From a virus, in the IMG/VR virus record IMGVR_UViG_3300036985_001013, positions 1-46,998 of that record: DNA of 46,998 nt; one strand, 5' to 3'. The translations under genes were made by a program, and so were the position numbers. A model generated the notes under the pieces. It was not told the origin of the DNA and did no database searches. It saw only the letters and a program-made list of their open reading frames with translations. Shown here one piece after another: positions 1,365-19,800 of the stretch (position 1 is its first letter; each line of letters begins with the position of its first letter).

Positions 1365-2092
1365 TATCTGTAGATAGTTTATTATATAAGATTGACCAAA
1401 GACTAAATAAACTATCAACCAATGATCATCAGCAAATCAACCTCGAAGATAAGATCTTGGCTCTTAATGAGGCACAGATCAAGCTGATAAAGCAAAAGGT
1501 TGATGGTTTCAGTGTAGTTAATGGTATGGGGCTTGATGCGTTCAAGAAGCGTTATGAAGACCTTCAGAGTTTGGTAATCACTTATATTAACCAACCTCTA
1601 ACGCTCACAATACTCAATCCAGAACTACATCAGTGGAAAGCTAGTCTTCATCTCCTTGTTCCTAAGTACATGTTCTACATTGATGCATATATATTAGCTG
1701 ATAAAGGAGTTTGCAAGGATAGAAAGATTTGGATCAATAGAGATTTGGCTAAACATGGTGATCTTCAGTTCATTCTGAATAACGATCATTATAAGCCTTC
1801 CTTTGAATACCAAGAAACTTTCAACTTCCTATCTTCCGATGAGATAAGTATATTCACTGATGGGACATTCACACCTACAAAGATTTACATATCATACATG
1901 AGGTATCCTCAGTATATTGATAAAACAGGATATGTAAGATTTGATGGTCAACCTTCTGTTGATCAAGATTGTGAACTAGAAACTTATTTAGAGGATGAAT
2001 TGTTGGATCTCACAGTGCAGAATCTGGCAATGTACACTGAGAATCAATCTGCTGTACAAAGCTCCATAATGAGAATACAAACGAACGAATAA
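1361..2092 (+). CDS. Head-tail connector / ring protein (243 aa)
   Basis: The start ATG overlaps the upstream stop. The N-terminal 70 residues are helical (LYKIDQRLNKL and a long Glu/Lys helix), the middle is beta-rich, and the end (about residues 200-243) is a helical pair around CELETYLEDELLDLTVQNL. This helix/beta/helix plan is shared with the 242-aa gene at 7860-8588, which also ends in a leucine-rich LEKQVLELTSQ helix. Such proteins form the dodecameric rings between portal and tail in short-tailed phages. The ring role is inferred from layout, size and neighbours. It lies between the head protein and the abundant protein at 2127. Confidence 0.55.
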   Translation: MISVDSLLYKIDQRLNKLSTNDHQQINLEDKILALNEAQIKLIKQKVDGFSVVNGMGLDAFKKRYEDLQSLVITYINQPLTLTILNPELHQWKASLHLLVPKYMFYIDAYILADKGVCKDRKIWINRDLAKHGDLQFILNNDHYKPSFEYQETFNFLSSDEISIFTDGTFTPTKIYISYMRYPQYIDKTGYVRFDGQPSVDQDCELETYLEDELLDLTVQNLAMYTENQSAVQSSIMRIQTNE

Positions 2093-2126
2093 AGTAATTT
2101 TTTTTAACATTTAAATAAAAAACAAA

Positions 2127-3290
2127 ATGGCTGATTTTTCATTAACTACCCTTTTCGTAGTTCCCGTTGGCACATCGATTGCTAGTTTGGGTTCTACGCA
2201 AAATCTCGCTGCTGGTGAAGTTGGTTTCTTCAGAGCTGACTATTCAGTGGCAACTGCTGCTAACATCGCAGCATCTGCTTATTTCTATGTTGCACAAGGT
2301 AGAACAAACACTTATCTGCAAGGCTCTAAGCGTTCTGATAAGATTAAAGGATGCCCTACAGCAAATTGTAACTCTAACGTTACAGATTTCTACAAGGTAT
2401 CTGGTTGCCCTACTGCTGCTACTCAGGTAACTGATGTATCTAATTGGACTGTTAAGTGTGGTGACATTGTTACCCTTACACTTCGTGCTCACTCTAGCTA
2501 CATTGACACTCTGTATTTCAATGGTTTCACCCGTTCCGTAACTGTTCAAGCTCCTTGCTGTGATTGCGGTGGTGATCCTTGTACTGATGTTGATGTTCCT
2601 GCTTTGATTGACAAGTTCATTTTCCAACTGGAACTTCAAGCTCCTGGTAACAACCCTGACAACATTAGCTTCAACACCTTCTATCAATTCCAAAGAATTG
2701 GTAATGATGCAAATGCAATCTTGCGTATCTCTGGTAAGCCTCTTACTAAGTACGGACAGCCTTGTGATGTTGCAGCATTTCCTTTCGAGTATGACAGAAT
2801 GTGGTTCCGTACATTTGTGTACAGTGGACCAGCAACTACAGCTGACTTCATCGTTGCTGATCGTTGTAACTTTGTAGCTGAGCCTGTTGTTACTCAACGT
2901 GCTTCTTATGCTTCTGGACAATCTGCAGAGATTCAACAATTGGAGAAGAATTTCTACAGCTACCAAGCTGGTTATTTGAAGCACCTTTACAGAATGGCGG
3001 GTTATAACGAGAACTTTGAAAGCTGGGTAACTGCAAATACAACTTACGACACTTACTACATCAAGTTCAACGAATATAACAAGTCTGAGTATCAGTGGGG
3101 TGACTACATCATGGAAGATAGCACTGTAATCATTGCTGTTCAGCAAGGTTCTGCTGCAGCTACTTCTGTTAGCGACATCCTGACTGCAGCTCTTGGTACT
3201 ATTCCTGGTAATAATACTTGTGAAACAACCACATCTACTACTACCACTGTATGGCCTTCTACTACTACTACATCAACTTTGATTCCGTAA
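2127..3290 (+). CDS. Abundant virion protein with Cys-rich loop and Thr-rich tail (387 aa)
   Basis: I do not recognise a named family. The protein is beta-rich, has a cysteine cluster near residues 143-152 (CCDCGGDPC), and ends in a low-complexity Thr/Ser tail from about residue 367. Codon use is strongly biased (AAC for Asn, CGT for Arg, GCT and GGT) compared with neighbours that prefer AGA and AAT. This is the same bias as in the capsid fragment at the window start and points to a high-copy protein. The leader is TTTAAATAAAAAACAAA before ATG, typical of well-translated Bacteroidota genes. A terminator hairpin follows. Candidates are a capsid decoration or head-fibre subunit, with the Thr tail exposed on the surface. 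Confidence 0.6.
   Translation: MADFSLTTLFVVPVGTSIASLGSTQNLAAGEVGFFRADYSVATAANIAASAYFYVAQGRTNTYLQGSKRSDKIKGCPTANCNSNVTDFYKVSGCPTAATQVTDVSNWTVKCGDIVTLTLRAHSSYIDTLYFNGFTRSVTVQAPCCDCGGDPCTDVDVPALIDKFIFQLELQAPGNNPDNISFNTFYQFQRIGNDANAILRISGKPLTKYGQPCDVAAFPFEYDRMWFRTFVYSGPATTADFIVADRCNFVAEPVVTQRASYASGQSAEIQQLEKNFYSYQAGYLKHLYRMAGYNENFESWVTANTTYDTYYIKFNEYNKSEYQWGDYIMEDSTVIIAVQQGSAAATSVSDILTAALGTIPGNNTCETTTSTTTTVWPSTTTTSTLIP
3225..3287 (+). repeat. Thr-rich C-terminal tail coding segment
   Basis: Two short tracts (TTTSTTTTVW, then PSTTTTSTLIP) end the abundant virion protein. The tail is built from mixed ACA, ACC and ACT codons, so the amino-acid pattern, not a DNA slippage tract, is what is kept. The same kind of tail recurs in the genes at 5459, 5920 and 10022. 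Confidence 0.75.
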
Positions 3291-5458: not shown

Positions 5459-5908
5459 ATGGCTTGTATACCAGGAATGCCTTGTTTTGGACCTGTTAAA
5501 GGTCCTGTATACCCAGAAGGAATGGGTCCTTGTACCATCCCCTGTGTGGATGCTCAGTATATCATCTATGAGGGACCGAACCTTCCATGTACAGGCATTA
5601 ATACCAGTACTAATTTGCAAGTTGCTTTAGAGAAGATTGATGAAAAGGTTTGTCCTGAGAATATTCTCACGTCAATTCTGCTTCTTCTTCAAACTGATCC
5701 AGCTTTCAAAGCAACCTTCTGTAGTATAGTGAACAGTTGTCTTCCAACTACCACAACTACTACCACTCTTTTCCCTCCAACCACTACTACTACAACTACT
5801 TTAGTACCACCTACTACCACTACTACAACCACATTAATACCTCCTACAACAACTACCACTACAACTCTTGAACCTCCAACTACTACAACTACTACCACTT
5901 TACCATAA
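5459..5908 (+). CDS. Small appendage protein with five-copy poly-Thr tail (149 aa)
   Basis: Residues 1-30 are Cys/Pro/Gly-rich. Residues 29-65 carry the module IIYEGPNLPCTGI...NLQVALEKID shared with three other appendage genes. A helix follows to about residue 95. Residues 96-149 are five tandem copies of an 11-residue unit, PTTTTTTTL plus two residues (FP, VP, IP, EP, and a shorter last copy). The tail is expected to be extended and could be glycosylated or act as a spacer. It starts 11 bases after the collar fibre gene. No enzymatic motif is present; the likely role is a virion surface decoration or fibre adaptor. Confidence 0.7.
   Translation: MACIPGMPCFGPVKGPVYPEGMGPCTIPCVDAQYIIYEGPNLPCTGINTSTNLQVALEKIDEKVCPENILTSILLLLQTDPAFKATFCSIVNSCLPTTTTTTTLFPPTTTTTTTLVPPTTTTTTTLIPPTTTTTTTLEPPTTTTTTTLP
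5744..5905 (+). repeat. 33-bp tandem repeat encoding PTTTTTTTLxP, five copies
   Basis: Each unit encodes Pro, seven Thr, Leu, one variable residue and Pro; the last unit is one residue shorter. Thr codons are mixed within and between copies, so protein sequence is constrained more than DNA. Copy number could change by recombination. Confidence 0.85.
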
Positions 5909-5919
5909 ACCAATAAATC

Positions 5920-6432
5920 ATGACCGTAGTAATAACACTCACAGTTGCAGGAGCTGATACAGGCCCTTTCAATCTCTATTCAGATGTAGATGGATTTACC
6001 ATTGCTTTTGAGACAAGCGTAAGTAAGGCTTCTCTCTTGGCAGGATATACATCTACTCTTGTGCCTCCAGGAACCACAACAATAAGAGTTGTCTCTCTTG
6101 GGATTTGCTCAGATTATATTGATATTTCTATAGAAGGTGGCTGCCTTTGCTGTACAAATCATGAATTCTCAGCTAATAGAGGGGCTGATGTAACATTTAC
6201 ATTTGTTGAATGTGGGGCTACAACTCCCACCACATACACTGCTTCAGACACTCCTGCAACATACTGTGTAGACAGATCCTATCCTATCATCCAAATTGGA
6301 ACTGAGGGAAGTTACGCAGACACAGGTGTGTGCTGTGAAACAACAACCACTACCACAACGGTGACTCCAACAACAACCACTACCACAACGGTGACTCCTA
6401 CAACAACTACTACCACAACAGTACTGTTATAA
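5920..6432 (+). CDS. Two-domain beta protein with poly-Thr tail (170 aa)
   Basis: Domain 1 (residues 1-72) is a small beta domain with TGPFNLYSD, LLAGYTSTL and SLGICSDYIDISI. It resembles the first 70 residues of the gene at 15983 (SGPFDISDN, SKGLCKKTINFPI). Domain 2 (about 75-139) has CLCCTNH and FVECGA and ends in a CC pair. It resembles a domain inserted in the muzzle at residues about 1660-1727 (CEVCYN, YYECGA). Residues 141-170 are three copies of TTTTTTTVTP-type repeats. So all its parts recur elsewhere in the window. Probably a virion surface or fibre-associated protein; function beyond that is unknown. A terminator follows. Confidence 0.65.
   Translation: MTVVITLTVAGADTGPFNLYSDVDGFTIAFETSVSKASLLAGYTSTLVPPGTTTIRVVSLGICSDYIDISIEGGCLCCTNHEFSANRGADVTFTFVECGATTPTTYTASDTPATYCVDRSYPIIQIGTEGSYADTGVCCETTTTTTTVTPTTTTTTTVTPTTTTTTTVLL
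6340..6429 (+). repeat. 30-bp tandem repeat encoding TTTTTTTVTP, three copies
   Basis: Units 1 and 2 are almost identical in DNA (ACAACAACCACTACCACAACGG shared), unlike the 5744-5905 repeat. This suggests recent duplication. The last copy ends in VLL and the stop codon. Confidence 0.85.
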
Positions 6433-6609: not shown

Positions 6610-7860
6610 ATGCCTGAAAATCAATCTCTTCTGCAACAGCTGGAGCAAATGCTCAGCTGGAAAAAGAGCAAAAAGTTCTATGCAGATAAACTTGGAATTA
6701 CAGAAGATGAGGTGGATGAGTTGCTAAAAGAATTGAAGGGTTCAGAACAAGCAACAATTGATGCAGAAGTTGGTTCTTACATTGGTGAATTAGAGAATAC
6801 GGTGGTGAGATTTTTTGAAGATGTAAGCAAAGGAACAGGTGAAGTTGTACTCAACAGCAAAGAAGAAATCAGGTCACTTGACGAACTTATCGAAAAGTGC
6901 AACATTGATACAGACAAGTGGGAAATCACTAAATACGTCCAAAACTACTGGGGAAATGGTGAAAATCCTCATTGGCAGGTTAAGGCATGGCTAGGAAAGA
7001 AGAAGAATGAGCAAGTGTTTCAGGATAGCTTTGTCACCTTCCTTGAGAACTATGAGCCCTGCTCTCCTGAGATAGTAGCTCCTAAATTTGATAACAGTAA
7101 AGAAGTAGCTTGCTTAATTATCAATAAGCAAGACTCTCACCTGAATAAACTAGATATTGAAGGAAACAATGATATAGAAAAAAGATTTGGCACATTCATC
7201 CAAAAGGTGGAGGTGATTCTAAATCAAGCCTCTCTTTCTAACTTCATTGCAGATATTAAATATATCATTGGATCGGATGAGTTTAATAGTGAGTTTACTA
7301 ATACCACTACAAAAGGCACCCCTCAGCAAAACATTCTTTCTTACCACAAATCTTTCCAAGCCATTTGTGATCATGAGGTGAATGTAATTAACCTTCTTCT
7401 TCAGAAAGGAGATGAGATTGAAGTGATCTTTGTAGCAGGTAATCATGATGAGTTTGTAGGCTGGCACCTAGCTAGCTGGTTAGAAACTTATTTCAGAAAT
7501 GAACCTCGTATAAGTTTTGATATCTCCCCTAGATACAGAAAGTATGTAAGTTACGGAACCTCAGCAATCATGTTCAACCATGGAGATGCTCTGAAGCCCG
7601 CAAAACTTGCTGGACTATTTCCAATGGAGTATAAAGAAGAATGGTCACATCATGACAACTTCTACATCTTCACAGGAGATAAACATCATGAGGTGAGTCT
7701 AGACTTCAATGGTATTAAGTTCTATCAACTTCCAGCTTTCTCTACAGCCAAGAGTTCTTGGGATGATAAAAATGGATACACTGTAACAAAAGGAGAAGTT
7801 ACTGGATTCCTTTTAGATTACAATGATGGAATGACGAATATATTCAAACAGTATTTATAA
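6610..7860 (+). CDS. Calcineurin-like metallophosphoesterase with N-terminal HTH-like region (416 aa)
   Basis: Metal-ligand motifs appear in family order: D175-S-H177, G221-S-D223, G277-N-H-D280 (GNHDE), N323-H-G-D326, and GDKHH ending at H360. These match calcineurin-like phosphoesterases, including Mre11/SbcD-type nucleases and phosphodiesterases. The DxH and GDxxD motifs are slightly altered (GSD instead of GD). Residues about 15-45 (KKFYADKLGITEDEVDELLK) look like a helix-turn-helix, so DNA may be a target. It is the first gene after a terminator and promoter candidate, and its stop overlaps the next start by one base. Its presence in a virion block suggests a packaging or virion-linked nuclease, but a metabolic phosphatase cannot be excluded. 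Confidence 0.8.
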   Translation: MPENQSLLQQLEQMLSWKKSKKFYADKLGITEDEVDELLKELKGSEQATIDAEVGSYIGELENTVVRFFEDVSKGTGEVVLNSKEEIRSLDELIEKCNIDTDKWEITKYVQNYWGNGENPHWQVKAWLGKKKNEQVFQDSFVTFLENYEPCSPEIVAPKFDNSKEVACLIINKQDSHLNKLDIEGNNDIEKRFGTFIQKVEVILNQASLSNFIADIKYIIGSDEFNSEFTNTTTKGTPQQNILSYHKSFQAICDHEVNVINLLLQKGDEIEVIFVAGNHDEFVGWHLASWLETYFRNEPRISFDISPRYRKYVSYGTSAIMFNHGDALKPAKLAGLFPMEYKEEWSHHDNFYIFTGDKHHEVSLDFNGIKFYQLPAFSTAKSSWDDKNGYTVTKGEVTGFLLDYNDGMTNIFKQYL

Positions 7861-8588
7861 TGGCAACTTTAAGGAAATTAGTTTCAGATGTACGCTCTAT
7901 GCATAAGCTGTTATCTACAGACAGTCTTATTACAGATAGAGCTGTGGCTTCTGAAATAAAGAACAACACCCTCATGCTGGTGAAAAGAGAAACCAATCTC
8001 AGAAAGCTCTGGGCTACGGATACTCTTTTTACTACCATCCCCTGTTTGGAGATGGTAGAAGTTCCTATTTCCGAATGTTGTGAATATGTTGATCCTTGCA
8101 GTGTAGCAAGAACCAAATTTAAACTTCCTCGCATTTCTGAAGGTAACTATCAATATGTTATTCAAGGTGTCTACTCAATTAACGCTATGAGTGGGCAGGG
8201 TAAGAAGTTGAAAGAAATAACCATCAATAGATATATCAATCTTCTGAAACTTCCTATTATCAAGAACGAAGAATACTACTGGATTTCTAATGGCTATCTA
8301 TATGTAAACAATCCTCTGTTGAAAGCCATCAGACTTGTAGCATTCTTTGAGGAAGATGTTCCAAATGAAATTATGTATCCTGAGTGTGGATGTGGCACTC
8401 CTGAATACACCACAGAACAACTGTGTATGAATCCTTTGGACAGAGAATATGCTCTCCCAGGCTATCTTGAAAAGCAGGTGTTGGAACTCACATCTCAGAA
8501 ATTACTCAGTACATATTTCAGACTTAAAACAGACATCACAGAAGATGGTATAGATGGTCAAGCACCAAATGCACCAAATCTGAGATGA
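7860..8588 (+). CDS. Ring / connector structural protein (242 aa)
   Basis: The start is coupled to the upstream stop (TAATG). The N-terminal 60 residues are helical, the centre is beta-rich (EEYYWISNGYLYVNNPLLKAI), and after a Cys-rich loop (CGCG...EQLC, about residues 176-192) the chain ends in a helix with YLEKQVLELTSQKLL. The plan matches the 243-aa gene at 1361-2092, so the two may be distant relatives stacked in the neck. Placement next to an HU/IHF-like gene and an adaptor gene matches the crAss-like neck cluster as I remember it. The role is inferred from architecture and position. Confidence 0.55.
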   Translation: MATLRKLVSDVRSMHKLLSTDSLITDRAVASEIKNNTLMLVKRETNLRKLWATDTLFTTIPCLEMVEVPISECCEYVDPCSVARTKFKLPRISEGNYQYVIQGVYSINAMSGQGKKLKEITINRYINLLKLPIIKNEEYYWISNGYLYVNNPLLKAIRLVAFFEEDVPNEIMYPECGCGTPEYTTEQLCMNPLDREYALPGYLEKQVLELTSQKLLSTYFRLKTDITEDGIDGQAPNAPNLR

Positions 8589-8589
8589 T

Positions 8590-9066
8590 ATGCGAACAAA
8601 GATAGACTGGAGAAGTTCCAGTAAAAGTAACTACAATCATTTCTGTAAGAAGAATCCTTCAATGAAGCTTTCTTTTGATCAGTGGAGGAATATCATCTAT
8701 GAATACAATGAAGCATTCAAAGAGTATATTCTAGAAACTGGAGAGAAAGCAAAACTCCCTTTTGGGTTTGGTGAGTTTTCCATCAATAAGAAAAAGAGAA
8801 GGAAGATGAAAGGGGTGGATGGAAAAGAGTTTGTCAATCTTCCAATTGACTGGAAAAAGACAAAAGAGAAGGGTAAACGCATCTATAATTTCAATTTTCA
8901 TACAGAAGGTTATTTCTTTGGCTGGATGTGGTTCAAAGACTCTGCTAGACTTAAACACACAGAACTTTGGTACTTCAAGCCTTCCAGAACAACATCTAGA
9001 TTACTGTCACATTTTTTAAAAACCAACGACAAGTATCAACACATTTATAGAGAATGGAAAAGATAA
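8590..9066 (+). CDS. HU/IHF-like DNA-binding protein (158 aa)
   Basis: Residues about 37-75 fit the HU/IHF signature: a helix (WRNIIYEYNEAFKEYILE), then TGEKAKLPFGFGEFSINKKKRRK-type sequence, comparable to the GekVxLpGFGxFxvxxR motif. The beta-arm region is very basic (KKTKEKGKRIYNF). At 158 residues it is longer than classic HU (about 90); the extra C-terminal part is rich in Trp, Phe and Lys. IHF-like genes occur in the structural block of crAss-like phages, supporting the call. Likely role: DNA bending or packing during head filling or in the neck. It begins 1 base after the preceding stop. Confidence 0.55.
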   Translation: MRTKIDWRSSSKSNYNHFCKKNPSMKLSFDQWRNIIYEYNEAFKEYILETGEKAKLPFGFGEFSINKKKRRKMKGVDGKEFVNLPIDWKKTKEKGKRIYNFNFHTEGYFFGWMWFKDSARLKHTELWYFKPSRTTSRLLSHFLKTNDKYQHIYREWKR

Positions 9067-9069
9067 ATT

Positions 9070-10044
9070 ATGTCGTACTATTATAAATATAACTTTACAT
9101 CACCAGAGGTTGTCTACTCCACTGTTAAGGAAGAGTTTAAAAGCTATTTCGATACAGGGGCTGTAGATGATTTGATGTTTCCCACCTACTTAGACAAGTG
9201 TCTGAGAAAGTTGGGAAGAACCACGTATGTCATTTCACAAGACATCTTACACATATCAGATTATGAAGCTAGGCTTCCTGATAACTTTTTTGCTGTAAGA
9301 GAGGCTTGGCTTTGTACAGCTGTGAATGGATTTCCTTATCAATCAGCCAATTCATTCTACTCCCAAGCTGCTACAAGAACCACTATTCAAGTGAGTCCTT
9401 TGGTAATTGGTGGTACACCTTGTAACAACCCAACTTGCCAGAACCCTCAATGCGATGGTACATGTATGCCTGAAATCATCCAGGCTGTATACAAAACAAA
9501 TAACTCTACACCAGTTCAATATAGAAGAGAATACCTGCTACAACCAGGTAATATTTCTGCTAGAAGAAACTGTGGCGTAGATTATACTAATAATTGGGAG
9601 TTTTATCAACAGGCTCCTCCTATACATGAGTTCACTCCAGGATCTGCTGGATATGACTCATTTGACATTAGAGACAATAAGTTCGTTACTAACTTCAGAA
9701 ATGGTGTGGTGCATTTGGTTTTCTATGCTACAGAATATGATGCAGGTGGAAATCAAATGATTCCTGATAACTATCGTATCAGAGAATACATTGAGGCTTT
9801 CATCAAGTTCAAAGTGATGGAAACCCTCACTAATCAGACCAACGATGAGACCTTTAACCAGCTACAACAAAAGCTTGCTTATTACAAGCAACTTTCAGAA
9901 GAAGCGTTCATCATGGCTGATATTGAAATCAAGAAACAAGATTCATGGACCAAGCAGAGAAGAATTAAGCAGGACCTGAATAGATTTAACATGTACGAAC
10001 TTCCTAATAGAACAAACAGATATGGCTGGAGAAGAAACAACTAA
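9070..10044 (+). CDS. Head-tail adaptor / tail-stabilisation-like protein (324 aa)
   Basis: The N-terminal 80 residues are helical and end with ISDYEARLPDNFFAVREAW. This form (short beta strand, LPxxF, helix) is typical of P22 gp4 / T7 gp11-type adaptors. Near residues 212-250 VVHLVFYATEYDAGGNQMIP leads into a long helix (YIEAFIKFKVMETL), another feature of these adaptors. A Cys-rich loop lies at about residues 117-136 (CNNPTCQNPQCDGTC). The C-terminus is basic and Arg/Asn-rich. It overlaps the muzzle gene by 23 bases. Likely forms the ring joining neck to the tail barrel. Confidence 0.65.
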   Translation: MSYYYKYNFTSPEVVYSTVKEEFKSYFDTGAVDDLMFPTYLDKCLRKLGRTTYVISQDILHISDYEARLPDNFFAVREAWLCTAVNGFPYQSANSFYSQAATRTTIQVSPLVIGGTPCNNPTCQNPQCDGTCMPEIIQAVYKTNNSTPVQYRREYLLQPGNISARRNCGVDYTNNWEFYQQAPPIHEFTPGSAGYDSFDIRDNKFVTNFRNGVVHLVFYATEYDAGGNQMIPDNYRIREYIEAFIKFKVMETLTNQTNDETFNQLQQKLAYYKQLSEEAFIMADIEIKKQDSWTKQRRIKQDLNRFNMYELPNRTNRYGWRRNN

Positions 10045-13000
10045 TCAGGGTAATATTAAGGTAGAGTATAACAATGCTACTACTGGCTTAAACCTAGATC
10101 AGACCGTAAATCAGATCTCCAAGGGTAAGCTCACGTATGCATTGAATGCTGCTGTCGAAAACTTTGATGCTAGTTCTGTTAACTATCAGAATGAGCCAGG
10201 GAATGAGTTTTGCCTAAACTTTCCTGATGGGTATCAACTCATTGGTGAACACTCTATTCCTGAAAGAGATAAGCATATCTTCTACTTAGCAAATCCTGAT
10301 ACAGGGGCTTCTGAGATTGGATATATGTTTAACAATGATTGTATCTACCAAACCCTGGTAAATGCTCCATGTCTCAATTTTAATATTAACTATCCTATTC
10401 ATAAGACTGTCCATAAGATAACTAATTGCACCACAGAGATTTATTGGACAGACGGACTCAATCCTAGAAGATGGATGGACATAGATAATGTCCCTTACAA
10501 AAAGTCTGATGCTTCTAGTGTGTGCGATCCAATCCCTACAAATGAGCTTGATTGTAATCAAATCAAGGTGCAACCCAACTTTGAGATTCCTGAGCTCAAT
10601 GTAGTTGATATAAGAAGTGGTGGGGATCTGCTTGCTGGTACTTATCAATTTGCTATTCAGTATTGTGATCCTGCTGGGAACGCTTACACTTCTTTCTACT
10701 CTGTTACCAACCCTACACCAATTGCTGATATACAGAAAACTACACCTAATTTCAATTATGCTGTAGGTAAGTCAATTAAGGTGCGTGTTTCAAATCTGGA
10801 TTTGACAGGGCAGTTTCAATACTTTAATCTGGCTGTGATTAAAACAGTCAATGCTATTACATCTGTTGAACTGATTGGTACATATTTTATTGAGGGTGCT
10901 GAAAGATCCATCACTTACACTGGTCAGAATAAAACTGATGTACGTCTTACAGTTGATGATATTTTTGAGAAATACCCCTATTACGAAATTGCTCAGGATA
11001 TTACAGCTGTTCGTGATATTCTTGTATGGGATAATTTGACATCTATTGATAGAATTAACTATCAACAGATTGCTAATGGAGTCACTCTTCAATGGCAGAC
11101 ATACAAAATCCCAGCTTCAGAAAACTACTCAGATGAGTTAAATGCTACCAACTTACGTGGATATTTGCGTGATGAGGTGTATGCATTTGAGATAGTATTC
11201 CTTTTAAGGAATGGTAAACAAACAGACGGTTTTCATATTCCTAGTAGAGCAATTACAGGAAATGATACAGTTGCTGTTCCCAATACAAATGCTGACTTTA
11301 TTGGTGATCCTGATTATTACATAGGAACTACAGGATATAGCCCTTATTGGAAGATATACAATACAGCATCTGTAGTAGGTCCTGCTACAGGAAACAATAT
11401 AGGAAATGCCACCCCTTATGAGTTCGGTGAGTTTGCATACTGGCAATCTGAAGAACTCTATCCTTGTAACAAGGACGTATGGGGAGATCTTGCAAGCACC
11501 CCCATTAGACATCACAAGTTCCCCGATGTTCTCGTAAGCCCCATTTTTGAATCTGCCATCTTCTCATCTCCTAGTGCAATGGTGATGCAGAGTGATGCTG
11601 TATTCCCTATAGGTGTAAAACTAGATATCTCTCAGGTTGTTTCTCTTATTAACTCTTCTAATCTTACACAAGAGCAAAAAGATGAAATTGCTGGATTTAA
11701 GATTGTAAGAGGGGATAGAGGAACAAATAAGTCTATTGTTGGTAAAGGTATTTTGAGAAATGTAGGTAAGTATGAAAGAGAGGGTACAGAATACTACTAT
11801 CCAAACTATCCTTATAATGACATTAACAAGGACCCTTTTCTATTAGATAAGAGCAATGCTTATACAGCAAACAATGATGTCGCTGCTGGTATGTTTTGTA
11901 GAAATTTTACCATTGAAGCAGTGGGTGATACAACAGTACAATATACAGACTGTTTCACTAATACAATTGCTACATTACAAATTAATGCTGGTGAAACTGT
12001 AGATGTTTGTGCACTAGATTTTCCAAAACCTACTATTATTGGAAACGCATGTGTTACGTCTAATACATATAAGACTTATAAAATTACAGCAAGAGGAGCT
12101 TACTTTACATTCTACCCTCCTCAAGATGTATGTCTTCCTGTTCCTACACCTATCGGTTATAGCAGCTGGTGTGACTACTGTATTCAGAACCCTGCAGACT
12201 TGTGCTGTAACACAGCTCTTACAGAAAGACAAGTTTATGCAAGTATATATGATCCAGTTACTGGTCAAGATGTAGGACGAGTTAGAATTGTAAACTCAAT
12301 CACTCCCCCTCTTTATGCAAGTGGTGATGGAAATTACACTATTGAAGAAATAGGATCTACTGGTTACGAGATATGTGCTCCTAAATCCTTAGATGGATTT
12401 TCTACAAATGCTTCTCAGTACAGACAGGTGTTCAATTCTCCTGAGACATCTTTTGGACAACCGTTCCTTGGAAATATTCTCAAACTAGAGAATGTTATCT
12501 ATGGGGCTGGTAAAGCACACTTCACACAAGTGAACAAGAATGCTCTTTACAAAATGATTAGTAAGGAGGCACAACAAGATGCTCTTGTTTCTGCAAATGA
12601 TATTGCTGACATCACTACAGACTACAATGCTGTAGCTCTGTTCGCTGCATACCAAGCCTATCTGACCATTTACATTAATGGTATCACCAGACGTAACTAT
12701 GCCTGGTCTTTCAACTCTATAGCTAGCTACGACTATAGCTCAAACATCAACAATAATGTAATTGGAAATGATGGCTATTTAGGAATTAAACAAAGAGAGA
12801 TTGATATTGCCACATACCTGATTCCTGCAGTGCAAGGTGTTGGGGATGTTGATGGCATTAGTGTAAATAACTGGCAGAGAGAGTCTTCCGTATTCCTGAA
12901 AACTGTAGATAAGTCTGGAACCTTCCAAAGAGTGTACAATACGTACAGAATCTGTAACGTTAACATCTTACCTAACACACAGGTATTTAGTTATACAGAT

Positions 13001-15973
13001 ATTACCACTGGAACTACCTCCACTTTAACCCTCACTGCAGGAAACTGTTCTACAATAAGCTCTTACACCTATCCTGAGCTAACCTCTGGAAACACTACGT
13101 ACACTGTTTCAGTTACAGGTTCTAATACAAACAATGTTGTAATTAACACACCTGCTCTAGCTTTCCCAGATCAAACTCCTAGCATTGCCCCTAGTGGAAC
13201 AAGCTTGGTAACAGATGATTCTAGATTTGTTCTGTCTGATAGTAGAGGAGATTGTAACAAGCCTGGTAGAGATACACACATCAGTACAGTTTGCTACTAT
13301 GCCTCTTTGAAAAACATTAGTGTTAGTCAATGGGGACAGATTTATTCTTATGACACAGTGGATACAGGATTCCAAAGAGACATCACTCCTTTTGCATCTT
13401 CTGTATTTGACACAGTGTTTGGTGGAGATACGTTCATCAGCAGATTTACATTTAAGACTAAGCTTCCTTTCTTCATTGACAATCGTGTAGGGGCTCCTGA
13501 TGATAGTGATATCTACTACGATGAGATTGGTAATGTAGCCTATCCAACATATTGGTACTCAGCACGTTCTGTCCTTACAGATGCTAGTGTAAATACTGTC
13601 ACTCTTAAGAACTTTATATCAATCAAGGCTCACAACCTGGATTGTCCAAATAGTCAAACCCCTACAACAAGCCCTGGTAGAACTTTCTATGATGGTAAGA
13701 TGTACCTGTTTGCTTATGGTGTTCCTAATTTCTATTGTGAGAGTTCTTACAATGTGGATCTTCGTCAAGCATTTAATAATAAAGAAGGTGACTTCTGGCC
13801 ACATGTAACTACAGGAATTCCTGATGATTGGGTTCAGGAGAGCAATGTTTCTATTGCTAATGATAACACCTATTACTACAATGTAACTTTCTCTAAACAG
13901 AACAGAGAGAATACATTTACACACTTACCTGCTGACTGGACCTCTCAGCTCTGCTACACCTACTATCCTTTCAGAGCAGTGTATTCTGATAGTCAGGAAG
14001 CAAATGCTGATAACAGAGTGAACAACTGGCTCACATATAGAGCTATATCATTCTATGATTTCCCACAGAACTACGGAGATCTTATCTCTCTGGATGGTAT
14101 TCAAAATAAGGCTGTTCTGGCTAGATTTGAAAATAAGAGCTTGTTATACAACACGTTGCTCACTGTTCAAACTAGCAATCCTCAAGCTGCTTATTTGGGC
14201 AATGATACATTGTTTAGATCAGCTCCTCCTGTAGATTTTGCTGAAACTGATCTTGGTTATGTAGGAAGCCAGAACAAAATGCTTCTTAAGATTCCTCAAG
14301 GACAAATCACCATAGATGCTAAGAGAGGTCAAGTATTCCTTCTGAATGGCAACCAAGCAACTGACTTGTCTGCATTTGGATCTGGAATGAACAGGTTCTT
14401 TACAGACCATCTAGCATTTGAAATCTTGAGATATTTTCCAAATGCTGATACAGATAATCATTTTAATGGGCTTGGTTTACATGGTGTATTTGATAGTAAG
14501 TATGATCGTGTGATCATCACTAAGCTTGACTATATTCCGAGAAACAAGGATATTAAATATGACGATGTTACCAAAAACTTCTATCTTGAGAAGCTTTTCA
14601 ACGGTCAGGTGATTAGAACACAGGTGTACTTGACAGATGTGGAATATTTCTGCAATAAGTCTTGGACACTCTCATTCAACATGAACACTCAAAGTTGGAT
14701 TAGCTTCCATAGCTATATTCCCAACTTCTACATAGCTGAGAATAACTTCTTCTATTCTGGATTGAATGACTGTTGCAGTGATTTTGAAGCTGTTGTAGCT
14801 GAGGTTCTTCCTGAGCCTTCCACCACCACCACAACTACATCATCAACTACTACAACTAGCACTAGTACAACTAGCACCACTACCACTTTGTTTGTAGGAT
14901 GTGATCTTGAAGGTGAGGCTGTAGAATACTGCTGTAACCTTCTGGGTGTTGCTTGTGATATTACACCTACAACCACCACTACAACTACACTATTCCCTTG
15001 TGAGGTGTGTTACAACTATTTGTTAGAAAACAACTCTGAGGTAAATGTTTTTGTTGCATATTATGAGTGTGGAGCTCAACAAGACACTGACATACTTGTA
15101 CCAGCTGGAGAATCACAAGTGATATGTGCTTGCGAGGGAACTGTAATTGATCCTTTGGTTAGTGGATTTACAATTACAGAAGATGGTACATGTGTACCTA
15201 CAACCACTACAACTACCACTATTTCTCTATGTCCCTCAGCGGGATTCCCTGAACCTGCTTATGCAGCATTGTTCTGGTCTCAAGGAGAGGTGGATACATC
15301 ATCTACAATTATCTGTGATGATAATCCAGTGGTTGAACCTTCTCAGTCTAAGTCTGTGTGGATTGCGTTCTTCTCAGATGCAGGTTTGACAACACCTTTG
15401 GCTACCACTATCAATAACTACCCTGTCACAGTTGGTGGCACTCCATATCTGATTGGAGCAGGAACTACAGAGTTTGCTTATTTTATTGACTACTTCCCAT
15501 ACTCGTCTAATCCTGTTGATCCTTTCACTTGCATTGTTGGAGAAACAATATTTGAACCTCTGCCTTCTTTAAGTGCAAATGATTGTTTCACAGTGGTAAC
15601 TGAGCCTACAATTGGTGATGGTGACATGATAATTCAAAGAGGGGCTGGAGATCCTACAACTAACGAATATACAGCAGACTTGGGTAATTGCTTATATGCT
15701 CCTGGATCAGGTACACCAATTCAGGTGGTAATAAATACTGGTCAGGCTGGTCCTATCACTCAATCAAATATTGCTGGATACTGTAATATAACTGTACGTG
15801 GTTTAGTGGTGACACAAGCATACACAATTACCATCTCAGGAACTGCCAATGATGGTAGCACTGGAGAGACCATTAGTGTTCCTTTTGCAATAGACATATT
15901 TGCAACATCTATTAAAAGTTACTTCCTAGATAGCAATCACAGTATTACAGTAACCGTTGATGAACTTCCATAA
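10022..15973 (+). CDS. Muzzle / nozzle-like tail protein with Thr-linked inserted domains (1983 aa)
   Basis: The start ATG lies inside the end of the adaptor gene; no other Met is near. Residues 1 to about 1583 are beta-rich and show the pattern of large tail-barrel proteins (T7 gp12/P22 gp10-like nozzle, crAss muzzle): a GKLTYALNAAVEN start, YQLIGEHSIPERDKHIFYLAN, a WTDGLNPRRWMDID turn, and late SKYDRVIITKLDYIPRNKD and SWTLSFNMNTQSWISFHSYI. From C1584 the sequence changes. Thr tracts sit near residues 1600-1621, 1648-1658 and 1727-1734, separating small Cys-containing beta domains, followed by about 250 residues of immunoglobulin-like beta sequence. The usual C-terminal muzzle part seems to be in the next gene. 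Probable role: DNA exit channel and distal tail. Confidence 0.75.
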   Translation: MAGEETTNQGNIKVEYNNATTGLNLDQTVNQISKGKLTYALNAAVENFDASSVNYQNEPGNEFCLNFPDGYQLIGEHSIPERDKHIFYLANPDTGASEIGYMFNNDCIYQTLVNAPCLNFNINYPIHKTVHKITNCTTEIYWTDGLNPRRWMDIDNVPYKKSDASSVCDPIPTNELDCNQIKVQPNFEIPELNVVDIRSGGDLLAGTYQFAIQYCDPAGNAYTSFYSVTNPTPIADIQKTTPNFNYAVGKSIKVRVSNLDLTGQFQYFNLAVIKTVNAITSVELIGTYFIEGAERSITYTGQNKTDVRLTVDDIFEKYPYYEIAQDITAVRDILVWDNLTSIDRINYQQIANGVTLQWQTYKIPASENYSDELNATNLRGYLRDEVYAFEIVFLLRNGKQTDGFHIPSRAITGNDTVAVPNTNADFIGDPDYYIGTTGYSPYWKIYNTASVVGPATGNNIGNATPYEFGEFAYWQSEELYPCNKDVWGDLASTPIRHHKFPDVLVSPIFESAIFSSPSAMVMQSDAVFPIGVKLDISQVVSLINSSNLTQEQKDEIAGFKIVRGDRGTNKSIVGKGILRNVGKYEREGTEYYYPNYPYNDINKDPFLLDKSNAYTANNDVAAGMFCRNFTIEAVGDTTVQYTDCFTNTIATLQINAGETVDVCALDFPKPTIIGNACVTSNTYKTYKITARGAYFTFYPPQDVCLPVPTPIGYSSWCDYCIQNPADLCCNTALTERQVYASIYDPVTGQDVGRVRIVNSITPPLYASGDGNYTIEEIGSTGYEICAPKSLDGFSTNASQYRQVFNSPETSFGQPFLGNILKLENVIYGAGKAHFTQVNKNALYKMISKEAQQDALVSANDIADITTDYNAVALFAAYQAYLTIYINGITRRNYAWSFNSIASYDYSSNINNNVIGNDGYLGIKQREIDIATYLIPAVQGVGDVDGISVNNWQRESSVFLKTVDKSGTFQRVYNTYRICNVNILPNTQVFSYTDITTGTTSTLTLTAGNCSTISSYTYPELTSGNTTYTVSVTGSNTNNVVINTPALAFPDQTPSIAPSGTSLVTDDSRFVLSDSRGDCNKPGRDTHISTVCYYASLKNISVSQWGQIYSYDTVDTGFQRDITPFASSVFDTVFGGDTFISRFTFKTKLPFFIDNRVGAPDDSDIYYDEIGNVAYPTYWYSARSVLTDASVNTVTLKNFISIKAHNLDCPNSQTPTTSPGRTFYDGKMYLFAYGVPNFYCESSYNVDLRQAFNNKEGDFWPHVTTGIPDDWVQESNVSIANDNTYYYNVTFSKQNRENTFTHLPADWTSQLCYTYYPFRAVYSDSQEANADNRVNNWLTYRAISFYDFPQNYGDLISLDGIQNKAVLARFENKSLLYNTLLTVQTSNPQAAYLGNDTLFRSAPPVDFAETDLGYVGSQNKMLLKIPQGQITIDAKRGQVFLLNGNQATDLSAFGSGMNRFFTDHLAFEILRYFPNADTDNHFNGLGLHGVFDSKYDRVIITKLDYIPRNKDIKYDDVTKNFYLEKLFNGQVIRTQVYLTDVEYFCNKSWTLSFNMNTQSWISFHSYIPNFYIAENNFFYSGLNDCCSDFEAVVAEVLPEPSTTTTTTSSTTTTSTSTTSTTTTLFVGCDLEGEAVEYCCNLLGVACDITPTTTTTTTLFPCEVCYNYLLENNSEVNVFVAYYECGAQQDTDILVPAGESQVICACEGTVIDPLVSGFTITEDGTCVPTTTTTTTISLCPSAGFPEPAYAALFWSQGEVDTSSTIICDDNPVVEPSQSKSVWIAFFSDAGLTTPLATTINNYPVTVGGTPYLIGAGTTEFAYFIDYFPYSSNPVDPFTCIVGETIFEPLPSLSANDCFTVVTEPTIGDGDMIIQRGAGDPTTNEYTADLGNCLYAPGSGTPIQVVINTGQAGPITQSNIAGYCNITVRGLVVTQAYTITISGTANDGSTGETISVPFAIDIFATSIKSYFLDSNHSITVTVDELP
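14816..15221 (+). repeat. Poly-Thr linkers and exchangeable domains inside the muzzle gene
   Basis: Three Thr tracts (about 14816-14888, 14964-14993 and 15197-15221) are joined by Cys-bearing segments. The segment between tracts 2 and 3 contains CEVCYN and YYECGA and matches the second domain of the gene at 5920. Thr codons are mixed ACA/ACC/ACT. Confidence 0.75.
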
Positions 15974-15982
15974 CATAAGTAA

Positions 15983-16849
15983 ATGTCTAAAGTAATATTC
16001 ATAAAGTTAACCAAAGCCTCTTCTAGAAGTGGTCCGTTTGATATTTCTGATAATCTCGGAAATGTTCTGGCCATAGATGTGCCTAGAAGCGTACTGATTT
16101 CAGGGGTTAGTTACTCTGTGGATGATCTTGTCAGTGTTATTGTTATCAAGTCCAAAGGCTTGTGCAAAAAGACAATCAACTTCCCTATTAGTGAAATTAT
16201 ACCTTCTCAGCAAGTTATTCTTACATTCACTCCTTCTAAGCAGGCTTGCTTGTGGAGACACTTGACTGATGTAGTGAACTATAACTACTTTTATGGTGTG
16301 GTGGAGCCTTACATCATCGAGTATCCTTTTTCATACCAGTTCTATGATGAAATCTTACAGAATGTAAAAGATTACACCAAAGCTTACAATTATCTTATTG
16401 ATGGTACTGGTGTATTTAATGACAACAATAGGATTGAAGTGGATAACCAGTGGTTCAACAAGGCTGTTCTGTATAATGGACAACAGTCAACGGGTGTACT
16501 TGAGCTTGTTCCCAAGCCAATTAACAACCTAAGTGAATACTTAAAATATCCAATATACAACGCTGAGAGTAAGACAATCATCTATACAAAGAGTGATAAC
16601 TTCTATCAGTATAACATCTTCTGGTCTTTGGTAAAAAATAAATCCATCCCATTGTTCATAACTACTTGTGAATCACTATCTTTGGACAAATTTGTCAACC
16701 AGGCAAATATGGACTATGGCAAGCGTTCTTTCAAGAAAGAGCCCCTAAGAGCTAAAGATCTGAAGGTGAGACACATTCTGGACAATAGTTCCACAGCACA
16801 CTTAGTTTCCCAATTCATTATTACACCTGCTCAAATTTCTTACAAGTAA
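15983..16849 (+). CDS. Separate C-terminal muzzle segment with new N-terminal beta domain (288 aa)
   Basis: Residues 1 to about 72 form a small beta domain (SGPFDISDN, SVLISGVSY, SKGLCKKTINFPI) resembling domain 1 of the gene at 5920. After about residue 88 the sequence changes to CLWRHLTDVVNYNYFYG, VEPYIIEYPFSYQFYDEIL, NKAVLYNGQQSTGVLELVPK, ANMDYGKRSFKKEPLRAKDL and a terminal VSQFIITPAQISYK. From memory, this is the normal C-terminal continuation of muzzle-type proteins, directly after the SWISFHSYIPNFYI region found in the upstream gene. It starts 9 bases after the muzzle stop. It is therefore probably assembled with the upstream product as a two-chain muzzle. Confidence 0.65.
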   Translation: MSKVIFIKLTKASSRSGPFDISDNLGNVLAIDVPRSVLISGVSYSVDDLVSVIVIKSKGLCKKTINFPISEIIPSQQVILTFTPSKQACLWRHLTDVVNYNYFYGVVEPYIIEYPFSYQFYDEILQNVKDYTKAYNYLIDGTGVFNDNNRIEVDNQWFNKAVLYNGQQSTGVLELVPKPINNLSEYLKYPIYNAESKTIIYTKSDNFYQYNIFWSLVKNKSIPLFITTCESLSLDKFVNQANMDYGKRSFKKEPLRAKDLKVRHILDNSSTAHLVSQFIITPAQISYK

Positions 16850-16850
16850 A

Positions 16851-19800
16851 ATGGCTAATAAGATTACATGTACATGTGGACATTCCTGGAATAAATCAGA
16901 TTCCAGCAAGAAAGACATGAACGTATGCCATATCTGTGGAAAGGATAACACTATGAAAAATGGTGGGTGGTTAGACAAATATGAACAAGGAGGACTAGTT
17001 TTAAAACAAAAGACTCACGATAATTACGGAAAGAAACCTAATGCTAACTATCCTGAGGTAACTCTTCCTCCAGGATTTGTAGGACAAGGATATAACATTC
17101 AAGGACGTAACTATAGTCCTGCATGGGGTGGACAGTTTCAGAATGGTGGTAATTTGATGCCTCCTATGGCTGGAGCTGATCAAACAGTTCCCATGGCTCA
17201 AAAAGGAACCAGACAACCCATCTATACATCAGACCCTCAAGATCCTAGATTAAGAAACTATCAGGATAGTTTGAATTTGTACAAAGCTTATCAAATGCAG
17301 GATAAGTTAATGGGACCTGGTAGTGGACCAAGTGATTATAAGTTTAAATGGACTACAGATGAACTTAAAAAAGGAAGAGTTAAGAAGATTGTTAAAGGGT
17401 TAGAGGAGGTTGGTCCAATATCTGAAGATTTTCAAAGCGAAAAAGATCAGTTTAAAAAAGGTTTTAATGATTTTACATCTAGACGAGAAGATAAAAAGTT
17501 AATAGATTATTATGAGAGTTTGGGATTTGGACCTAATCAAATAATGTATCATTCTTCTCCAGATGTAATTAGTGATAAGATTAGAGCTATTGGTACTTAT
17601 TTTGATGGCACTGCTAATAGTCCTATTTATAAAAAACCTGTACAACCTGTCGTATACAAAAAACCCATACTTGAAAAACCAAGCCTTAGTGTTGATCTTC
17701 CTAACATTGAACTCACTGATGTTAGACCTTCTATAGCTCAACCTACATTTGAACAGGCAAGAGTGGATATGTCTAAGCCCACTAAATACAGCTATACCTA
17801 TCCCACATTTGATAAGGATGTTCAGAAGACAATGTATTTCCCTGACAGAAGCAGCTGGAAAACATTTGTAGAACAACAAAGAGGAGCTAGTTCCCAGGAA
17901 GGAAAAGATTATGGATCTGCTACAGGGCAGTTTGCAATGGGTGGAAGTATTCCTGGTGCTGTAGGATTCACATACGCACGTACAGCTGGGGCTGCTCCTT
18001 CAGAAGGTCCTTATGCTAAGAAAACTCTTCCTAGTGCACAAGATGGTGAAGAAGTAACATATACACATAATCCATCAGGTTCTAGAGAAGCGTACACGTT
18101 GAAGAGAACTGTAACTCCGTACACTTCAAAAAGAGATATACGTAGGCTTACACAGATGCCCACTGATCCTAGACAAGTTAACTTTCTTTCTAACTATGCT
18201 GGAGCAATAGGAGAGCCTGGATTAGAAGGATTTCAATACCCAACCTCTGTACCATTTGAAGGGAAAAAGCATTGGAATATAGATAGATTTATAATTGATC
18301 CTCAATTTGGTACCAGTTATCCAGAATTACGCAATCAAGCAAGTACAAGAGAAGAAATGAGAAATAATGTACTTGCTGATATGTACAAGTACAACATGCT
18401 TCAGAATCCTGACAAAAGAGGAAAAGCTTGGAGACAAGCTAAAAGATTTGTCAGAACAGAAATAGATCCAAGAACCAGTGGTGCATATTATGAAGAAGCT
18501 GTAAGATCTAAATTGCCTTTTGCAGCTGGTTCAATTACAGATGCTGTTGATGAGTCCTACATGAGAGGTTTTGGTATAGCTCAAAGTTCTGCTCAAAGTC
18601 CAGAAATTAGTGATGATGATTTCTACACTGCAGACTTTAAAAATAAACCAATAACAGAGTCTAGAGCAAAAGAGGTTGCAACAGATTGGTTAAGAAATTA
18701 CAAAGGCTTATCTAAAAAACAAGCTAAGCAATACATTCAGTCTTTACCAACCTATACCAAATTTAGAGCAGTTAATTCCTCAAAACCCTCAAACAATACA
18801 GCCACCTGTCCTCCAGGTTATGAGTTTAATTATGAGGTGCAGGAATGTTTACCTAAAAAATCTAAGTTTGGCGGTGTTACAGAGACATTACCTAGTGCAC
18901 AGGATGGATTAATGACTGGAAAAGATTACTATGAGCAATGGATGAACTCTCCAATGTACAAACAAATGCTTGAGACGAGTGTTCAAGGTCCAGAACTTGA
19001 AAGAATATCTCAAGGAAGAACAAAGAGTTATAGTTTGCCATATTCAGTAGTACCAACAAACTTTGAAGATCCTACAGTTGGTGGAGAAAGAAGATATCGT
19101 GTAAGAACCCCTCTAACTGCAACTTCCAAAGAGTTGGAAGAAATGACCAGTGCTCTGAGATATGCAGCTGCAAATCCAAAAGATAAAGATGCTGTTAGAA
19201 AAGCTAAACAAATAATGGAACCAACGATTACAGGTTGGGATGTATTAATAAATAAACAATTCAAGCCAGGAACTGCAAGATATGAAAGTACACTTGCTCA
19301 TGAGCTTGGACATTTAACTGATGCTCCTTTTGTTCCAGGAAAACTTTCTGCTTCTGATTTAAAGAAGTTTGATACAAGAGATTATATACCAGCTTCTGAT
19401 AAAGAGAAAATAAAAAAATATACAGAAAACAAAACCCTTGATGAATACAATAAGTATCTGAGTAATCCTAAAGAAACTAGACAGTTTCTCAATGAACTTA
19501 GATATGTAGGAAAAACACAAGGTATCTATGATCCTTTTACAGAAAAAATAACTGTTGATAAGTTTAGAAAAATTAGTGGAGATCAATCACCATCAAAAGA
19601 TGCTCTTTTACATTTGTATAGTGAGGATGAGATTGTAGATATGTTGAACAGCATATCAAAAGCTCCACAAGAAGGAATTCCTACAGCCCAGAATGGTCAG
19701 GAAATGTCCTTCTACCAACATGGACTAGATTGGACTCCTAGAAACATTAGTAGGAATGGAGGATGGTTGGATAAGTTTGAAGAAGGTGGTGAGATTGTAA

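Follow-up and report, generated by a model that had tools for sequence, protein, structure and literature searches.

The window, by which we mean the whole 46,998-base viral metagenome record that was analysed, carries in its tail block, together with the ring-protein genes, two consecutive ORFs that lie in the same reading frame with two in-frame TAA codons between them. The features on which the argument draws are the following.

5920..6432, plus strand: small separate gene encoding, in this order, ND, a TD-like domain and three Thr tracts (ND E 2.2e-9)
7860-8588, upstream of ORF1: CrAss_Ring_2 gene (Pfam)
9070-10044, directly before ORF1: CrAss_Ring_1 gene (Pfam)
10022..15973, plus strand: ORF1, muzzle N-terminal chain, 1983 aa (PF25731 crAss_MUZ, phrog_37948, phrog_15100)
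11897..12013, plus strand: partial TD-like segment within the ORF1 core, an in-chain copy (TD HMM domain E 7.9e-6, search of seven window proteins)
14636..14764, plus strand: block A, the final conserved stretch of the propeller ahead of the break (DVEYFCNKSW...SWISFHSYIPNFYI...FYSGL), aligned in single-chain and split relatives
14756..15970, plus strand: 405-aa extension at the C-terminus of ORF1, hypervariable and absent from single-chain relatives
14819..14887, plus strand: Thr/Ser tract 1 (tail comparison)
14969..14989, plus strand: Thr tract 2 (tail comparison)
15008..15193, plus strand: TD, a Cys-bearing domain between Thr tracts (home-made HMM, E 1.2e-13 and 5.6e-18, this copy itself being among the seeds)
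15200..15220, plus strand: Thr tract 3 (tail comparison)
15971..15982, plus strand: gene boundary, consisting of TAA, two codons and a second in-frame TAA, followed by the ORF2 ATG (sequence)
15983..16849, plus strand: ORF2, muzzle C-terminal chain, 288 aa (phrog_15100, 3.9e-12; 80 relatives in viral contigs)
15983..16249, plus strand: ND, the N-terminal domain of ORF2 (about residues 1-89), a predicted six-stranded beta domain (pLDDT, HMM)
16250..16846, plus strand: block B (LWRHL to the end), the C-terminus of the ancestral single-chain muzzle (alignments; pLDDT when folded with ORF1)

ORF1 consists of a conserved muzzle core and a variable C-terminal tail. It matches PF25731 (crAss_MUZ) with 100.5 bits (E 1.1e-28), well above the curated cut-off of 27, and the PHROG families phrog_37948 (6e-107) and phrog_15100 (9e-27), residues 22-414 aligning to the start (first 420 positions) of the latter. 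The first-pass annotation had drawn the gene limits and the break correctly: ORF1 spans 10022-15973, SWISFHSYIPNFYI occupies its residues 1558-1571 and ORF2 spans 15983-16849. Conservation of the core stops at about residue 1578 (nt 14755), beyond which Thr-linked domains continue to the TAA at 15971. Within the core, the alignment to most split relatives breaks at about 12900-13160 (residues about 961-1046); this stretch and the TD-like segment at 11897-12013 suggest that there are more variable spots inside the ORF1 chain.

ORF2 carries the remainder of the same family. Its residues 89-286 match positions 1589-1781 of phrog_15100 (family length 1783), so that the start of the family corresponds to ORF1 and its end to ORF2, in agreement with the earlier proposal that ORF2 continues the chain; searched alone against Pfam, ORF2 gave no match. 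In Lbo-JY46 (1654 aa), csAssE-Sib (2257 aa, annotated as the muzzle), phi17:2 (2289 aa) and Fpv2 (1783 aa) the sequences homologous to the two sides of the break lie within one annotated CDS, where block A (SW..S..S..P.YYI....F.TG) and block B (LW.H...) are only 5-14 residues apart. A profile test of the fetched loci found both blocks in one ORF at 63 loci, 16 of which are split upstream instead, and 42 loci otherwise have a single muzzle ORF that spans blocks A and B. When joined, the blocks are almost always separated by 9-42 nt (about 3-14 residues), the exceptions being L245 (84 nt) and L214 (246 nt). In the csAssE-Sib locus (L082), an annotated TnpB-family gene at 1898-3121 lies directly upstream of the muzzle gene. 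The scan found no relative with the Lbo-JY46 C-terminus alone, and every informative relative either fuses the C-terminus to the muzzle or encodes it in the following gene, rather than ending the muzzle at this point and lacking the remainder.

The split is conserved among the relatives of this phage. All 79 informative loci of a first scan were divided at the window-type point, and the fetched loci taken together contain 111 distinct split junctions, which fall without exception in that loop and have two ORFs in place of the single polypeptide that reaches the C-terminus in other muzzles. At these junctions the tail of chain 1 ranges from 26 to 555 aa and is mostly Thr-linked, while chain 2 keeps a length of about 287-300 aa, with 88-93 aa of ND (100 in one case) ahead of block B. 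The chains are separated by no more than 40 nt at 84 of the 111 junctions, where relative frames 0, 1 and 2 occur 16, 28 and 40 times, and by 463-1951 nt at the other 27. The wide gaps that were read as examples contain one or two extra small genes, each of which starts with an ND-type domain and goes on with Thr tracts or variable domains; such genes lie between the muzzle genes of L019, L022, L025, L031, L036, L038, L045, L053, L059, L067, L068, L069, L073 and L076. In close pairs, pN/pS was 0.116 for ND and 0.036 for the C-terminus of ORF2, which is under strong purifying selection, tighter than that on ND.

Junction frames, wide gaps, the search for introns and pN/pS together lead us to reject the explanations in which the break is not a real division of the protein. 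A sequencing or assembly artefact, a thought prompted by the metagenomic source, is scarcely credible when there are 111 distinct junctions, a conserved domain has been added and both chains are under selection. Joining of the products at expression, through readthrough, frameshifting, an intron or an intein, would leave the mature muzzle as one chain; it accords with the shared frame of ORF1 and ORF2 in the window and with the recoded stops, introns and inteins known in crAss-like phages (PMC7886860), where interrupted structural genes likewise appear as several ORFs. We nevertheless judge it very improbable, given the two in-frame TAA codons, the dispersal of relatives over all three frames, the genes lying inside the wide gaps that were read, and the absence of any Rfam intron family match at the junction. 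In addition, ND is conserved as protein, begins after an ATG and keeps a constant distance from block B. Unlike the interrupted genes described previously, the window has no detected intron or intein and encodes two chains, both translated and conserved, that have a new domain between them.

One relative, L208, is informative about the history of the split. It carries a single 1645-aa muzzle gene with the loop KVGIG, the gene order around it matches, and a homologue of the window gene at 16851 directly follows the muzzle gene. In a tree drawn from blocks A and B alone, L208 had an unresolved position at the root of the split clade; with more alignment columns (733) it fell inside, in one well supported group with the split phages and as the fully supported (100/100) sister of the split phage L077, with which it shares 84% identity. 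Monophyly of the split phages without L208 was rejected (AU test, p = 0.0006). The tree is best read, in its simplest form, as one split followed by one natural re-fusion in L208; two separate splits are a possible alternative.

Structural modelling is consistent with the assignment of both chains to the muzzle. The muzzle of phiCrAss001, gp44 (PDB 7QOK, 7QOL; PMC10172136), is one hexameric protein of five domains: a ring-joining domain, a seven-bladed propeller, two Ig-like domains and a crass domain inserted in IG2. It was out of sequence reach for profiles built from the present proteins, and PDB sequence searches with ORF1, ORF2 and two profiles matched no muzzle. When AlphaFold2 folded ORF2 alone, pLDDT was about 80-93 over ND (residues 1-70) and mostly 45-75 over the C-terminus, which rose to mostly 76-96 when ORF1 from residue 1167 onward and ORF2 were modelled as one artificial read-through chain; the rise is partly due to a richer alignment rather than to the partner chain, since the alignment for the joint model took in single-chain relatives (minus five named-phage collection rows). 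In this model most of ORF1 ahead of the break scored 80-96, and most of the tail stayed under 50. The only significant Foldseek matches of the joint model were the phiCrAss001 muzzle chains 7qok_A (probability 1.00) and 7qol_P, at E 4e-5, which points to a gp44-like fold of the modelled C-terminal part; the aligned residues are not reported in the output, and weaker matches included beta-propellers. From the published domain layout of gp44 and the predicted strands, the break would fall in the propeller, which the C-terminal part of ORF2 should complete. The window muzzle resembles gp44 in that ORF1 scores above the Pfam cut-off and directly follows the ring-protein-1 gene, and in the structural match of the joint model; it differs in that its last part has a gene of its own, which starts with a foreign domain, and in that chain 1 ends in a variable tail.

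We conclude, with a probability of about 0.86, that ORF1 and ORF2 together make up a single crassvirus muzzle subunit, one half each, and re-associate at the tail tip. A short loop connecting two beta strands in the C-terminal (propeller) part of the ancestral single chain would be where the break occurred, and co-assembly of the products, with the break at an exposed loop, most likely rebuilds one subunit, so that both chains would be present in the virion. The comparison of split with single-chain relatives supports the first-pass reading of a muzzle gene split in two, and a distal tail built from both chains is its most likely outcome. ORF2 might instead be a tail protein in its own right, active at another place and carrying a duplicated or captured muzzle C-terminus, with ORF1 working as a truncated muzzle. 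Its extra domain and its own start would fit such a role, as would the fact that its association with ORF1 is a predicted one, and we consider this improbable: block B was seen once per split locus, always adjoining ORF1 and never in a second copy, it is more constrained than ND, it has no confident predicted fold by itself, and a single gene in the unsplit L208 takes the place of the two in its split sister.

The new C-terminus of chain 1 is hypervariable. In a comparison of 59 distinct extensions, 88% of the pairs with 75-80% identity in ORF2 had no alignable tail in common. Some of the domains involved are shared with other genes of the window and, as had been noticed from the sequence, both sides of the break carry domains that also occur in the 5920 gene, namely ND and a TD-like domain that is weaker there (domain E 5.5e-5, search of seven window proteins). 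ND is foreign to single-chain muzzles; its HMM matched split-clade loci and the window, and none of the 63 loci unsplit at the window-type loop. Tracts of six or more Thr occurred in 167 of 179 split and 3 of 63 other loci, the flank lengths being somewhat unequal between the two sets. Recombination of the muzzle gene with a 5920-like, module-bearing gene is a possible route to the split. Thr tracts also end two other genes of the tail region, at 2127-3290 and 5459-5908, the latter with five regular TTTTTTT blocks. In L056, which has the window-type split, a Thr-linked domain lies in frame within the muzzle chain just before block A (about 9060-9319).

A second set of 16 loci (13 distinct in the tree) has the muzzle broken at the loop preceding block A: L181, L183, L186, L190, L192, L199, L202, L205, L210, L214, L215 and near copies. 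These loci sit apart from the window clade, with unsplit lineages in between, and this break is therefore of independent origin; in both lineages split and unsplit phages occur side by side. Where the ITKKDY motif was found in the upstream ORF, chain 1 extends 192-715 residues beyond it, and the tails examined contain Fib_succ_major (3e-33), PKD_5, DUF285 (1e-86) or leucine-rich repeats, while chain 2 starts with a small Cys-rich domain that is, by eye, unlike ND. L191, an unsplit neighbour of this lineage, has no large insert in the loop. In L199 and L205 (7192-7788), a 199-aa ORF that by eye resembles a homing-type endonuclease lies between the muzzle genes; the L199 copy had no Pfam match.

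The first-pass annotation held that the gain of Thr-linked domains had split the gene. This is only partly supported. ND and Thr tracts track the split, but an inserted domain does not suffice to split the gene and is not required for the split to persist, because in L214 a TD domain (E 3e-5) lies in frame at precisely the loop that is broken in the window, with no break there, the unsplit L213 and L195 have VWA domains (above and just below the curated cut-off, respectively) in the loop before block A, and L209, L052 and L042 are still split with the shortest tails of all (26-31 aa). Nor is an order of domains before split supported as a model-free claim. These short tails and unbroken insertions are what would be expected if fission and domain gain were unrelated, the former an ancient accident of no selective consequence and the Thr-linked tails a tolerated free end, an alternative that is unlikely and yet the most substantial of those we weighed; against it, two lineages are broken at adjacent loops with surface-type domains on both new C-termini, and the split is accompanied by ND and Thr tracts. 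In the two-chain muzzle that we favor, the new C-terminus of chain 1 would display Thr-linked domains in an array open to free exchange, probably exposed toward the host surface and binding hosts, and chain 2 would open with its own small beta domain, ND, common to small neighbouring genes. We propose tentatively that the muzzle has been repeatedly and reversibly broken at two adjacent loops for domain swapping, and that ND may dock separate ND proteins, i.e. the products of the extra genes in the break and of the 5920-type gene, which would assemble at the tail tip into an interchangeable, multi-protein display.

The muzzle that gates the crassvirus tail is a single protein in one structure, and insertions in its crass and IG2 domains are known to make its length vary among crassviruses (PMC10172136). 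Domains have been inserted into surface loops of the muzzle in those cases as in the window, where the insertion site is another loop, close to the C-terminus, and coincides with the break in the gene. We found no report of a split crassvirus muzzle within the searchable literature and no isolate that has one. A large uncultured, environmental group of crAss-like phages encodes its muzzle as two genes, and an independent lineage does likewise at the next loop. Annotation of the first muzzle gene alone misses the C-terminus of the protein. The split phages constitute a natural test of how far a key tail-tip protein tolerates being cut, and the break sites mark where crassviruses vary their host-facing surface.
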